From Nostocales cyanobacterium HT-58-2 (GTDB lineage: Bacteria; Cyanobacteriota; Cyanobacteriia; Cyanobacteriales; Nostocaceae), in assembly GCA_002163975.1 (NCBI GenBank), contig CP019636.1, positions 124,001-188,000 on the forward strand: 64,000 nt of DNA. The letters are read 5' to 3'. Of the stretch, positions 1,446 through 46,410 are shown piece after piece. Below the pieces are notes generated by a model. The model had not been told where the DNA came from and ran no database searches. It saw nothing but the letters and a program-made list of their open reading frames with translations. Positions within the stretch are counted from its first letter, which is position 1. Each line of letters begins with the position of its first letter. Position numbers and translations under genes: made by a program.

Positions 1446-3191
1446 ATGATAACCAAGATAACCAAAGCCCTTAATAGACAAACTTATTATCTACCTGAAA
1501 ACCTTGCCCAGAAGGTTCAGGAGTTCCTTGAAGATTGGCAAGCCAATCATAAGGTGCAGCAGTTATGGGCAGAGAATGCTTCGCTCTGGACTGACACAGA
1601 TGAGAATCGTTGGCTTGGCTGGCTCGGTATCACTGAAGACCAACTGGCACACATTGATCGCCTCAAAGAACTAGCACAAGAAGTTAAGAGTGAAGGTTTC
1701 TCACATATATTGTTGCTGGGAATGGGCGGATCAAGTCTGTGCCCTGAAGTGATGAAGTTGACTTTCGGCAAACTGCTGGGCTACCCTGAATTATACGTGC
1801 TAGATTCGACAGACCCAGCTCAAATCAAGGCGATCGAGAGGAAAATAGACCTCACCAAAACTTTGTTTGTCGTGTCTAGTAAATCGGGCGGCACCTTAGA
1901 GCCGAACATCTTCAAGCAATATTTCTGGGAACGTGTACAACAGGTTCTAGGTGCTGAACAAGCAGGCAAACGCTTTATTGCCATCACCGATCCCAAATCG
2001 AAACTGCAGCAAGTCGCACAGGGCGATCGCTTCCGCCACATTTTCTTTGGCTTACCCAGTATCGGCGGGAGGTATTCAGCCTTATCAAATTTTGGCATGG
2101 TGCCTGCGGCGATTATGGGTGTAGATGTCGAGAAGTTTTTGAATTCTACTGAAGAAATGGCACAAGCGTGTGCCGCGAATGTCCCAGCTGGAGATAATCC
2201 CGGTGTCGTTTTAGGAACAATTCTAGGAGTGTTAGCCAAGCAAGGTCGGGACAAAATTACCTTGATTGCCTCACCAGGAATTTCCGACTTGGGCGCGTGG
2301 TTAGAGCAGTTGCTGGCAGAGTCAACAGGTAAGGACGGCAAGGGACTGATTCCCATTGACCAGGAACCCTTATCGTCACCAAATATTTATGGTAGCGATC
2401 GCTTGTTTGTTTATGTCAGATTAGAGTCAGCGCCAAATCCAGCACAGGATGCAGCAGTTGCTGCCCTTGAACAGGCAGGACAGCTAACGGTGAGAATCTC
2501 AGTGACAGATCCCTATCACTTAGGTCAAGAGTTTTTCCGTTGGGAAATTGCGACTGCTGTTGCCGGATCAATTATCGAGATTAATGCCTTCAACCAACCG
2601 GACGTGGAAGCCAGCAAAATTGTCACAAGGCAGTTGACAGCCGCGTATGAAAAGACGGGTACACTTCCAGCAGAGACGCCAATTCTCAGAGAAGAAGGCA
2701 TTGAGTTGTTCACAGATCAAAAGAATGCAGCAGAACTCTTGTCGGCAGTTGGCAATGACCAGTCACTAGTAGGTTATTTGCGCTCGCACCTGAATCGCCT
2801 GCAAGTCGGGGACTATTTTGCCTTGCTGGCTTACGTAGAGATGAACGACCTACACCTGGAGCAACTACAAGCAATACGTCTTGCTGTCCGCGATGCGAAG
2901 AAAGTTGCAACTTGTTTGGGTTTTGGACCGCGCTTTTTGCACTCCACTGGACAAGCTTATAAGGGTGGACCAAATACAGGTGTTTTTCTGCAAATCACGT
3001 GTAAAGACGCCATTGATTTGCCTGTACCTCAGCAAAAATACAGCTTTGGTGTCGTCAAAGCAGCTCAAGCACGCGGTGATTTTCAAGTTTTGGCCGAGCG
3101 CGATCGCCGGACCTTAAGAGTGCATCTAGGTTCAGATGTACAAGCAGGTTTAAAGACTCTACAAAGAGTCATCAAGCAGATTTTAATTTGA
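1446..3191 (+). CDS. pgi: Glucose-6-phosphate isomerase, Tal-Pgi type (stand-alone PGI half)
   Basis: This protein should interconvert glucose-6-phosphate and fructose-6-phosphate. Its 581 aa match the C-terminal half of the bifunctional transaldolase/phosphoglucose isomerase family: sugar-phosphate-binding [11 protein letters not shown] (about 93-103), [11 protein letters not shown] (144-154), [16 protein letters not shown] (about 208-223) and the late [19 protein letters not shown] (about 498-516). The transaldolase half is absent: the 160 bp upstream have no coding capacity for it, and the ATG at 1446 starts at the PGI domain boundary. It opens a same-strand cluster with gnd and zwf. A canonical, unrelated-looking pgi is at 9914-11503, so this copy may be dedicated to the cluster. 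Confidence 0.85.
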
Positions 3192-3216
3192 ACTAGCAAT
3201 CACAAGGAGAAATCAT

Positions 3217-4236
3217 ATGGAATTGGGAATAATTGGTTTGGGGCGCATGGGCGCAAACATAGCGCGGCGTCTACTACGAGACGGACACACCTGTGTTGTA
3301 TACAACCGGACTCCTGACAAAGTCAAACAGCTAGAAAGTGAAGGGGCAATAGGCACGACTTCCCTAGATGATTTTGTTAATAAACTCACGAAACCCCGTG
3401 CTGCTTGGGTCATGGTGCCAGCTGGTGAAGCGACAGAGCAGATAGTCACAGAGTTAGCACAGAAGATGGAGCCAGGCGACATCATTATTGACGGTGGCAA
3501 TTCCTACTACAAAGACGATGTCCGCCGTGCCAAGATTTTGCAAGAAAAAGGCATCCACTACATAGATGTAGGAACTAGCGGCGGGGTATGGGGTTTAGAG
3601 CGGGGTTATTGCCTGATGATTGGTGGTGAAAAAGCCAGTGTTGAACATCTAGACCCGATTTTCAAAACTATTGCTCCCGGACTGGGCGATATCTCGCGCA
3701 CTCCTGGACGCGCTCGCCTGAACAGTACCGCTGAAGCAGGTTACTTGTACTGTGGACCAAATGGAGCTGGACATTTTGTCAAGATGGTTCATAACGGCAT
3801 CGAATATGCTCTGATGCAAGCTTATGCTGAGGGCTTTGATATCTTCCGCAATGCTAACTCTCAAGAGCTAGCTGAAGGTTATCGCTATGAGTTAAATGTA
3901 GCAGACATTGCTGAAGTCTGGCGCAGAGGCAGTGTTATCGGCTCTTGGCTACTGGATTTGACTGCAATGGCTTTGGTAGAAAATCCTGATCTTTCCAACT
4001 ATACAGGATTTGTACAAGACTCTGGCGAAGGACGTTGGACAATTATGGCAGCCATAGAGGAAGCCGTACCTGCTGATGTACTGTCAGCATCGCTCTACAC
4101 GCGCTTCCGTTCACGGCAAGAACACACTTTTGCTGAGAAGGTGTTGTCAGCAATGCGGAATAGGTTTGGCGGGCATGTAGAACAACACAGTCTTGGTGTA
4201 ACCGTAGATGAGAAACGGGTCGAAACTCGGCGTTGA
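3217..4236 (+). CDS. gnd: 6-phosphogluconate dehydrogenase (decarboxylating), short form
   Basis: It catalyses oxidative decarboxylation of 6-phosphogluconate to ribulose-5-phosphate. The N-terminal Rossmann motif [16 protein letters not shown] (residues 4-19) and VYNRTPDK after the second strand are clear, as are [10 protein letters not shown] (about 92-101) and the active-site region [13 protein letters not shown] (about 191-203). At 339 aa it belongs to the short clade rather than the roughly 470-aa GndA. The Arg-Thr after Asn in NRT hints at NADP use, but this is inference. The start has a good Shine-Dalgarno (AAGGAGA) 8 bp upstream. It sits 25 bp after pgi and just ahead of zwf. Confidence 0.92.
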
Positions 4237-32757: not shown

Positions 32758-32865
32758 CTTGAGTTATGAGCGATCACGAGTATCGGCTATCAGCTATTAG
32801 CTTAAAGCCTGAAGTCTAAATGATAAAGACTTGAATTCTAATTTAAAGTTCGTACTTTACAGTTT

Positions 32866-33139
32866 TTTGACGGCTCCCCGGACTTCAGGACGGGGATTCT
32901 TGGATCAATGGGAGTCCAGCGACTTTACCCTCACCAAAATTCACTGCGATGCGCCCCACCGCTGTATGGATAGAGAAAATTCTTTTGCTCCCCAGGAGCC
33001 AAAACTTTCTCAGGAAACTACGCCCATTACAAGACAGGTTCCTTTGCCGCAGCGCGAGACTCTGCCTGTGTAGCGAGTCATTCTATTGTATCAAAAGTCG
33101 CCCTGGAAGGGCGAGGCTTGTATCCCATATTTTTGGTCA
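32866..33139 (-). ncRNA. ORF-less 275-bp structured repeat, copy B (HEARO/omegaRNA-like)
   Basis: Read on the minus strand, it runs from TGACCAAAAATATGGGATAC to GCCGTCAAA. It has the hairpin CGCCCTTCCAGGGCG, then a -10-like GATACAAT box, several internal stems, and the 3' hairpin CCCCGTCCTGAAGTCCGGGG. Copy A at 45453-45727 (plus strand) is about 95% identical, with the 3' stem imperfect there. No nuclease ORF accompanies it; short frames inside are antisense or chance. It lies between the J-domain gene and clpP3. Confidence 0.55.
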
Positions 33140-45452: not shown

Positions 45453-45727
45453 TGACCAAAAATATGGGATACAAGCCTCGCCCTTCTAGGGCGACTTTTG
45501 ATACAATAGAATGACTCGCTACACAGCCAGAGTCTCGCGCTGCGGCGGAGGAACCTGTCTCGCAATGGGCGTAGTCTCCTGAGAAAGTTTTGGCTCCTGG
45601 AGAGCAAAAGGAATTTTCTCTATCCATACAGCGGTGGGGCGCATCGCAGTGAATTTTGGTGAGGGTAAAGTCGCTGGACTCCCATTGATCCAAGAATCCC
45701 CGTCCTAAAGTCCGGAGAGCCGTCAAA
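45453..45727 (+). ncRNA. ORF-less 275-bp structured repeat, copy A (HEARO/omegaRNA-like)
   Basis: About 95% identical to copy B (32866-33139, opposite strand), including the 5' flank TGACCAAAAATATGGGATAC. It begins with CGCCCTTCTAGGGCG hairpin and a -10-like GATACAAT box and ends with the 3' CCCCGTCC...GTCCGGAG stem (one mismatch versus copy B) and GTCAAA. It ends 20 bp before cobO and could affect its leader. No nuclease ORF accompanies it. Read antisense it contains a chance ORF that is not a gene. Confidence 0.55.
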
Positions 45728-45747
45728 GTGAACTAAATGCCAGCGCC

Positions 45748-46410
45748 ATGCAAACCGATGAAACTTGGGCAACTACGAGTGATGTAACTGTTCGGGAAAA
45801 TTCTTCCCTGACGTCAGAACAGTACCGCAAAAAGATGCAGCGACGCCAAGAAGTCCAGGAAGCGCGAATGACTCATGCGTCTAGCGAAAAAGGGTTAATT
45901 ATTGTTAATACGGGTCATGGCAAGGGAAAAACCACTGCAGCGCTAGGAATGGTGTTGCGTGCGCTTGGTCATGGGTATAAGGTAGCCATTGTTCAATTTA
46001 TCAAAGGCGCTTGGGAACCTGCCGAAAAAAGAGTTTTTAGTATTTGGCAAGATGATTTATTAGAATTTCATGCAATGGGTGAAGGCTTCACCTGGGACAC
46101 TCAAGATCGCGATCGCGATATCGAAAAAGCGATCGCTGCTTGGCAAAAAGGATTAGAATACATCCGTAACCCAGACTTCAAGCTGGTACTGTTGGATGAA
46201 ATTAATATTGCTCTTAAACTTGGCTACTTACAAGTTGAGGAAGTTTTAGCTGGGTTGGCTCAAAAGCCGCATGACAATCATGTTATTCTGACAGGCAGAG
46301 GTGCACCCACAGCCTTGATTGAACGCGCCGACTTAGTAACGGAAATGACATTAGTTAAGCATCCTCTTCGTGATCAAGGTATTAAGGCGCAACCAGGAAT
46401 TGAGTATTAA
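45748..46410 (+). CDS. cobO: Cob(I)yrinic acid a,c-diamide adenosyltransferase
   Basis: It adenosylates cobyrinic acid a,c-diamide or cobinamide in cobalamin synthesis. The 220-aa P-loop protein has Walker A NTGHGKGKTTAALG (about 55-68), the QFIKGAW motif, and LVLLDEINIALKLGYL as the catalytic Asp-Glu pair, all of CobO/BtuR. The N-terminal 45 residues are a family-typical extension. It begins directly after repeat copy A. Confidence 0.93.
   Translation: MQTDETWATTSDVTVRENSSLTSEQYRKKMQRRQEVQEARMTHASSEKGLIIVNTGHGKGKTTAALGMVLRALGHGYKVAIVQFIKGAWEPAEKRVFSIWQDDLLEFHAMGEGFTWDTQDRDRDIEKAIAAWQKGLEYIRNPDFKLVLLDEINIALKLGYLQVEEVLAGLAQKPHDNHVILTGRGAPTALIERADLVTEMTLVKHPLRDQGIKAQPGIEY

Follow-up and report, generated by a model that had tools for sequence, protein, structure and literature searches.

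TnpB is the ancestor of the CRISPR-Cas12 nucleases, and stand-alone copies have been reported for the HEARO RNAs of IscB systems, in which the guide lies 5' of the scaffold. In IS608 the target and right end, whose counterparts are described below, are TTAC and TCAA. The scaffold of the ISDra2 TnpB RNA is given, in the available text of PMC10097598, as 116 nt with stems 1-4 followed by a 3' guide; its stem-1 loop forms a pseudoknot with nucleotides -6 to -2, and cleavage does not depend on the region 5' of -116. The guide is 16 nt long and is taken from the flank (excerpts of PMC8612924 and PMC10097598). A role of TnpB in transposon retention is stated in the accessible part of PMC10278001, and PATEs carrying part of the TnpB C-terminal coding region have been described (HqIRS71; PMC3119063, available in part).

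The window, a 64,000-nucleotide stretch of the genome of Nostocales cyanobacterium HT-58-2, contains two repeats that a sequence-only reading had described as near-identical, structured and lacking a nuclease ORF, and had proposed to be orphan omegaRNAs, possibly HEARO RNAs. The description held: copies A and B agree at 259 of 270 aligned columns (96%), no nuclease ORF is present in either among the listed ORFs of at least 60 aa, and the 5' hairpin, GATACAAT, the internal hairpins and the terminal GTCAA lie where that reading had put them. Over 100 nt, ungapped, the left flanks of A and B are 31% and the right flanks 29% identical, so that apart from TGAC the flanks are unshared. We consider it probable that the repeats are ORF-less elements of the IS200/IS605 kind without tnpA or tnpB, which keep both DNA ends together with a predicted TnpB-type omegaRNA (reRNA) that would be used in trans (Table 1).

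Table 1. Features of the repeats in the window and of the related psbB-psbT loci.
Feature	Position	Strand	Remark
Element A, ORF-less, IS200/IS605-type (PATE-like)	45457-45726	+	270 bp; ends TCAA
Element B (locus L002)	32867-33135	-	269 bp; same anatomy as A
TGAC target tetranucleotide of copy A	45453-45456	+	Precedes element; predicted TAM
TGAC target tetranucleotide of copy B	33136-33139	-	
Left-end subterminal hairpin	45478-45494	+	Also scores terminator-like, then CTTTT
-10-like box, GATACAAT	45500-45507	+	13 nt before conserved ACACAG
5' RNA domain, helices 1-3	45515-45570	+	56 nt; conserved across families
Apical hairpin of 5' domain	45534-45550	+	
Variable long hairpin between 5' and 3' domains	45581-45620	+	Absent in short families
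Stem 1	45631-45647	+	Common to TnpB genes (codons around AVGHI)
Stem-1 loop GGC	45638-45640	+	Predicted pseudoknot with GUC 45722-45724
Stem 2, 5' arm	45655-45659	+	Partner 45690-45694; covaries in TnpB ends and ORF-less sequences
Stem 2, 3' arm	45690-45694	+	
Stem 4 / right-end hairpin	45697-45718	+	Copy A 4 of 5 pairs (one mismatch), copy B intact
GUC, 3' side of predicted pseudoknot	45722-45724	+	Just before element end
Predicted guide of copy A	45727-45746	+	Flanking DNA, outside element; position only, 20 nt shown
Predicted guide of copy B	32847-32866	-	Flanking DNA; position only, length inferred
psbB-psbT orphan	L191:2140-2242		
psbB-psbT orphan	L190:1242-1340	-	
psbB-psbT orphan	L238:924-1022	-	
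psbB-psbT orphan	L237 (G056:C492:16500-18300)		

The repeat recurs in its own genome (7.9 Mb) far beyond chance, with at least 36 matches among the matches listed (40 of 52 candidates were scored) and at least 11 copies near full length (at least 250 nt) at 93-100% identity. A further copy, L012, consists of the left end only (63 nt, 100% identity), and L033 is a related element of a distinct type. G001, a relative in the same family, carries element copies that match loci of Desmonostoc vinosum HA7617-LM4 exactly, and a copy in G004 is identical to a locus of Fischerella PCC 9431.

All 11 near-full copies are preceded by TGAC, the base before it varying. One of them, L003, splits an ORF, and joining its flanks (the sequence up to TGAC and that after TCAA) restores a continuous frame, which in a protein search of 40 genomes was matched in 36 and without match in 4. 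The interrupted gene, for which no Pfam match was found, is in one piece without stops in 33 relatives of the 39 searched, while it lies in two halves in its own genome, is split in G014, and is matched over only 30 residues in G004. Junction sequence was printed for five of the eight relatives fetched, and in these five the codons cross the site unbroken, for example CTGGACAAGGAC in L146 versus CTTGAC/AAAGAC in the own genome. The element thus inserts 3' of TGAC, with TCAA as its right end and without target duplication, the empty-site evidence coming from the single L003 site; these are marks of IS200/IS605 insertion. Subterminal imperfect palindromes are present at both ends, and of the 11 own copies 6 have a right-end hairpin in which 4 or 5 of the 5 pairs form.

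The terminal hairpins also differ among otherwise near-identical copies. The right-end hairpin loop (TCCTGAAGTCC or GGACTTCAGGA) is inverted in L001, L002, L004 and L006 relative to L003, L005, L007, L008, L010 and L011, and the left-end loop is found in inverted orientations, as TTCC or GGAA (left-end loop of L006). GGGGAG is replaced by GCTTAG in the right-end hairpin of L005, L007, L010 and L011, and stem 3 of L080, L084 and L088 shows the complement of this swap, CTCCCC to CTAAGC: the same bases in two places and two genomes.

Both ends of the repeat recur in L032, a locus of the same genome, positions 1-48 being 90% identical to its left end and positions 174-275 being 79% identical to its right end over 105 columns. 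L032 encodes a TnpB with HTH_OrfB_IS605, OrfB_IS605 and Cas12f1-like_TNB domains, and its alignment to the solved ISDra2 TnpB places conserved acids at all three of the residues that we take to be the catalytic triad. The genome holds 74 TNB-domain matches, 73 of them over the cut-off, and 8 Y1-transposase matches, so that a tnpB in trans, for which the sequence-only reading had suggested a search, is present in L032 and among the 74 matches. No TnpA with matching ends was found at the four IS605 loci (BLAST) and the one further Y1 locus examined. Behind the L032 TnpB element lies a second, diverged tnpB 3' end with a right end, on the reverse strand at about 3123-3226 (L013:1016-1117, minus strand).

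The 3' domain sits at the right end of the element and is homologous to the tnpB 3' end plus right end, and the elements share with cyanobacterial TnpB 3' ends the order stem 1, a GGC or GAC loop facing GUC, stem 2, a GGG/CCC stem 3, and the right-end hairpin as stem 4, a layout that agrees with the published ISDra2 scaffold. The pairs of this domain were counted apart on 24 TnpB ends (set A3) and on 29 ORF-less sequences (set A4, comprising 26 elements and 3 psbB-psbT orphans, with 25 distinct sequences); the structures were written out after viewing the alignments, and the relatives are few in number and related to each other. L104, L105 and L175 were omitted from the 3'-domain list for their insertions, as were the TnpBs L172 and L119, in which GTCAA was not found; L161 and L178 were left out of A3, and L184 and L237 out of both sets.

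Among the TnpB ends 97.3% of cells were paired, against 41-51% in slid controls, and 12 pairs had both-side changes, in 57 cells as compared with 14.9±4.0 after shuffling (0 of 500) and at most 7 when slid. The ORF-less sequences gave a similar picture, with 95.0% of cells paired (43-51% when slid), both-side changes in 9 pairs versus 5.6±1.3 shuffled (4 of 500), and 45 such cells versus 13.8±2.5 shuffled (0 of 500) and at most 9 when slid; further pair types were not in excess in this set (19 versus 17.5 shuffled, 118 of 500). Stem 1 is paired in 96.0% of cells in the ORF-less sequences and 99.3% in the TnpB ends, and the pseudoknot in 100% (25 of 25 distinct rows) and 98.6%, respectively, its variation in the ORF-less rows being on one side only. 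At the innermost pair counted in stem 2, the ORF-less rows have G-C, C-G, U-G or U-A and the TnpB rows C-G, G-C or A-U, 3 of the 24 TnpB rows being unpaired there. Copy B forms every counted pair of stems 1-4 and the pseudoknot, and in three of the six G001 copies 2 of the 5 pairs of stem 3 are left. The hairpin of stem 4 doubles as a DNA signal and so does not by itself count for an RNA.

In a tree of the 3' domain the elements from three genomes (the own one, G032 and G001) group with the TnpB lineage bearing TAVGH, L033, L047, L095, L102, L104, L105, L106 and L107 fall among the AAVGHT TnpBs, and L045 and L074 are without clear placement; support is limited because the domain is only about 100 nt long. 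The 5' domain is common to all of them, and the 3' ends either would have been swapped with those of local TnpB elements or would belong to lineages that co-diverged. Short GC-rich palindromic inserts of the GCGCTAGCG/GCGTAGCG type lie inside the RNA domain of L045, L104 and L105. Another ORF-less element of the own genome, L184 (G000:C1:3585000-3589000, minus strand 1727-1941), has a 3' domain of the same kind with a long stem 3, preceded by a 5' part of another sort and by a TATAAA-like box.

Upstream of the 3' domain of the repeat lies the 5' domain, which combines a strongly conserved core with an apical hairpin. Across families the second inner pair of the hairpin is G-C, A-U, U-A or C-G, and the loops include GAAA, GUAA, GCAA and UUCG (GNRA or UUCG in several families); 4 of the 11 own copies have a broken first inner pair. 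A count on 28 sequences, taking in the middle hairpin and stem 1 along with the 5' domain, gave 8 pairs with both-side changes and 35 such cells, as compared with 9.3±2.3 shuffled (0 of 500) and at most 15 when slid; the excess of further pair types was weaker, at 21 versus 19.1 shuffled (21 of 500). Both the 5' and the 3' domains show covariation above shuffles, which supports the structured RNA of the sequence-only reading. The folding energy of the single sequences was no better than that of shuffles on either strand (z 0.33 and 0.37), and with z near 0 single-sequence folding was dropped as support for an RNA.

The promoter-like start noted in that reading is likewise borne out, as a -10-like box upstream of the structured domains. 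A TANAAT-like hexamer lies 13-14 nt before ACACAG in families with differing upstream sequences and was the top pick of our -10 script in 18 of 28 rows; the other 10, A and B included, have a similar hexamer there, with an equal or better one picked elsewhere, such as TAGAAT 8 nt before. A strict sigma-70 scan gave no -35/-10 pair, the hexamer being without a -35 partner, so that transcription from this box is only putative.

No homology of the 5' domain to TnpB coding DNA was detectable in the TnpB genes tested. Derivation from the tnpB zinc-finger codons (TGKKELSER), suggestive by eye, was rejected: in only 8 of 77 element-TnpB pairs did fewer than 5% of shuffles reach the score, in at least 2 of these 8 the alignment covers parts of the 3' domain or a different place, and the stem expected at these codons is not kept among TnpB genes. 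Derivation from the DRD...VLSRG codons was also rejected, three core sequences against 29 TnpB ends scoring at shuffle level (mean z -0.43 to -0.64). Covariance-model matches on TnpB genes rest on the 3' part and were therefore not counted for the 5' domain; the 10 alignments shown bypass most of it.

Named genomes contain 13 loci with the exact 5'-domain pattern (Anabaena, Desmonostoc, Nostoc, Fischerella, Brasilonema and a Nostocaceae MAG). In a survey of 386 genomes of the phylum it occurred in 4, counting the own genome, where it picks up 6 of 12 copies; with the covariance model, 6 of 120 genomes had matches above 80 bits. The 3' domain follows in 28 of 28 copies examined, and given that most of these were chosen for whole-repeat similarity, the fairer test is the set of loci found by the 5'-domain pattern alone, where 15 of 15 checked carry the 3' domain and right end. 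Viral contigs gave no instance of the exact pattern, and plasmid and phage collections no match (blastn, distant).

The 3' domain also occurs alone, between psbB and psbT (identified by Pfam in G004), in four genomes of two genera (G004 and G056; G008 and G059). These orphans have TATAAT- or TATACT-like boxes ahead and no recognised left end. Between the genera their scaffold is 85-88% identical and the next 20 nt 85-90%, the preceding spacer being 45-61% identical. We regard this RNA as a candidate domesticated guide RNA.

Taken together, the repeat appears to have kept and extended a TnpB-kind guide RNA, and relatives in the same genome may supply it with both a transposase and an RNA-guided nuclease. 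An RNA of about 210 nt would start at the -10-like box and run through the right end into the flank, which would give each copy a unique guide, and a TnpB encoded elsewhere in the genome would bind this RNA. Excision by TnpA in trans would leave an empty site flanked by TGAC, which the TnpB-RNA complex would cut, and repair from the sister copy would restore the element and favour its retention. The element would in that case parasitise its relatives for both transposase and RNA-guided nuclease.

There is an appreciable though minor probability that the repeats are instead ordinary DNA-only PATEs or MITEs, that is, deletion derivatives moving by their ends, whose RNA-like features would be remnants of the tnpB 3' end and of DNA hairpins that TnpA needs. 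HqIRS71-type PATEs with a TnpB C-terminal coding part, as described in the available text of PMC3119063, are a precedent, IS605 elements have the right-end hairpin as a DNA feature, the fold energy equals that of shuffles, and stem 4 is damaged in 5 of 11 own copies, where 2-3 of its 5 pairs are left. A DNA-only element needs no stem 1, stem 2 or pseudoknot, however, yet these pair in 96-100% of cells in the ORF-less sequences. Furthermore, stems 1 and 2 carry both-side changes, the extra 5' domain covaries across families, and the -10-like hexamer keeps its 13-14 nt distance to ACACAG where upstream sequences differ. The sequence-only reading had set its RNA against a MITE with transposase-recognition ends, and this alternative is also half right: the ends are indeed IS200/IS605 ends, but the both-side changes fall in stems other than the terminal DNA hairpins.

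An RNA of the host is improbable, whether a domesticated or regulatory one or a 5' leader of downstream genes that spread by chance. Copy A does end 21 nt before the start of an ORF of the CobA_CobO_BtuR family (an adenosyltransferase gene, at 45748), and the orphan found between psbB and psbT in four genomes demonstrates that RNAs of this sort can become fixed; against this, the copies lie at unrelated sites, one of them inside a gene, and the 5'-domain pattern, which detects only 6 of 12 own copies, is found in only 4 of 386 genomes. Most doubtful of all, and in our judgement almost certainly wrong unless the relation is a distant one, is the HEARO/IscB-type orphan omegaRNA originally proposed. 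The repeat is ORF-less, structured and mobile, as that proposal would have it, but no Rfam family reached its gathering score in the window, the HEARO covariance model (RF02033) gave no match on the repeat at E<=10 nor on a distant relative, and we rejected membership on these results; the ends and 3' domain match TnpB elements instead. The only sub-threshold HEARO match in the genome is elsewhere (G000:C1:6187684-6187958, locus L031; 60.4 bits versus a cut-off of 83), and no IscB-like ORF was seen there among ORFs of at least 100 aa within about 1 kb to the left and 1.5 kb to the right (L037). A search for PF14239 (RRXRR), presumably the IscB N-terminal domain, gave no match in the own genome, the control genomes being equally silent. 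What survives of the orphan omegaRNA is its kind, in that the repeats are ORF-less and mobile, have covarying stems and possess a 3' half that is omegaRNA-like by homology and fold; its type is that of TnpB and not of HEARO.

If the repeats are, as we favour, ORF-less elements with a TnpB-type guide RNA, they might represent a class of guide-only mobile elements, which we advance tentatively and with rather less than even confidence: stand-alone TnpB omegaRNA genes with their own promoter, an added 5' domain and 3' ends swapped with or acquired from more than one TnpB lineage, living as parasites of TnpB in filamentous cyanobacteria. The psbB-psbT relative, kept in two genera and lacking a recognised left end, would then be a candidate for a domesticated guide RNA. 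Were such elements maintained by TnpB encoded elsewhere, RNA-guided transposon retention would be open to parasitism in trans, and omegaRNAs could separate from the nuclease gene, a step needed toward CRISPR-like systems in which one nuclease serves many guides. What the constant 5' domain contributes is a testable question, and a direct test is possible since one genome holds the copies, their empty sites and a TnpB whose catalytic triad is kept.

While TnpB omegaRNAs are already known, the titles and abstract starts of open-licence PMC papers, among the matches listed, described no ORF-less TnpB omegaRNA elements of cyanobacteria and no ORF-less version with a promoter-like box and a covarying 5' domain; the words orphan, PATE and standalone are absent from PMC12558985, on archaeal omegaRNAs. 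HEARO/IscB omegaRNAs (RF02033) belong, as does the RNA proposed here, to the OMEGA class, but their covariance model has no match here. The element resembles the PATEs of Haloquadratum walsbyi, especially HqIRS71, in being short and transposase-free, with subterminal palindromes, IS605-type ends and no target duplication (PMC3119063); unlike the PATEs as presented in the available part of that paper, which contains no guide-RNA reading, conserved RNA fold or promoter, it has a conserved 5' RNA domain with covariation. With the ISDra2 TnpB omegaRNA (reRNA), as described in the accessible portions of PMC8612924 and PMC10097598, it shares the location at the right end, a guide in the flank, a TAM that equals the left-end target, and stems 1-4 with a pseudoknot. 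In those same portions, however, the ISDra2 scaffold overlaps tnpB and lies 3' of it, whereas in the element no tnpB accompanies the scaffold, which has a -10-like box of its own in front and an additional structured 5' domain, and the predicted TAM is TGAC in place of the TTGAT of ISDra2.
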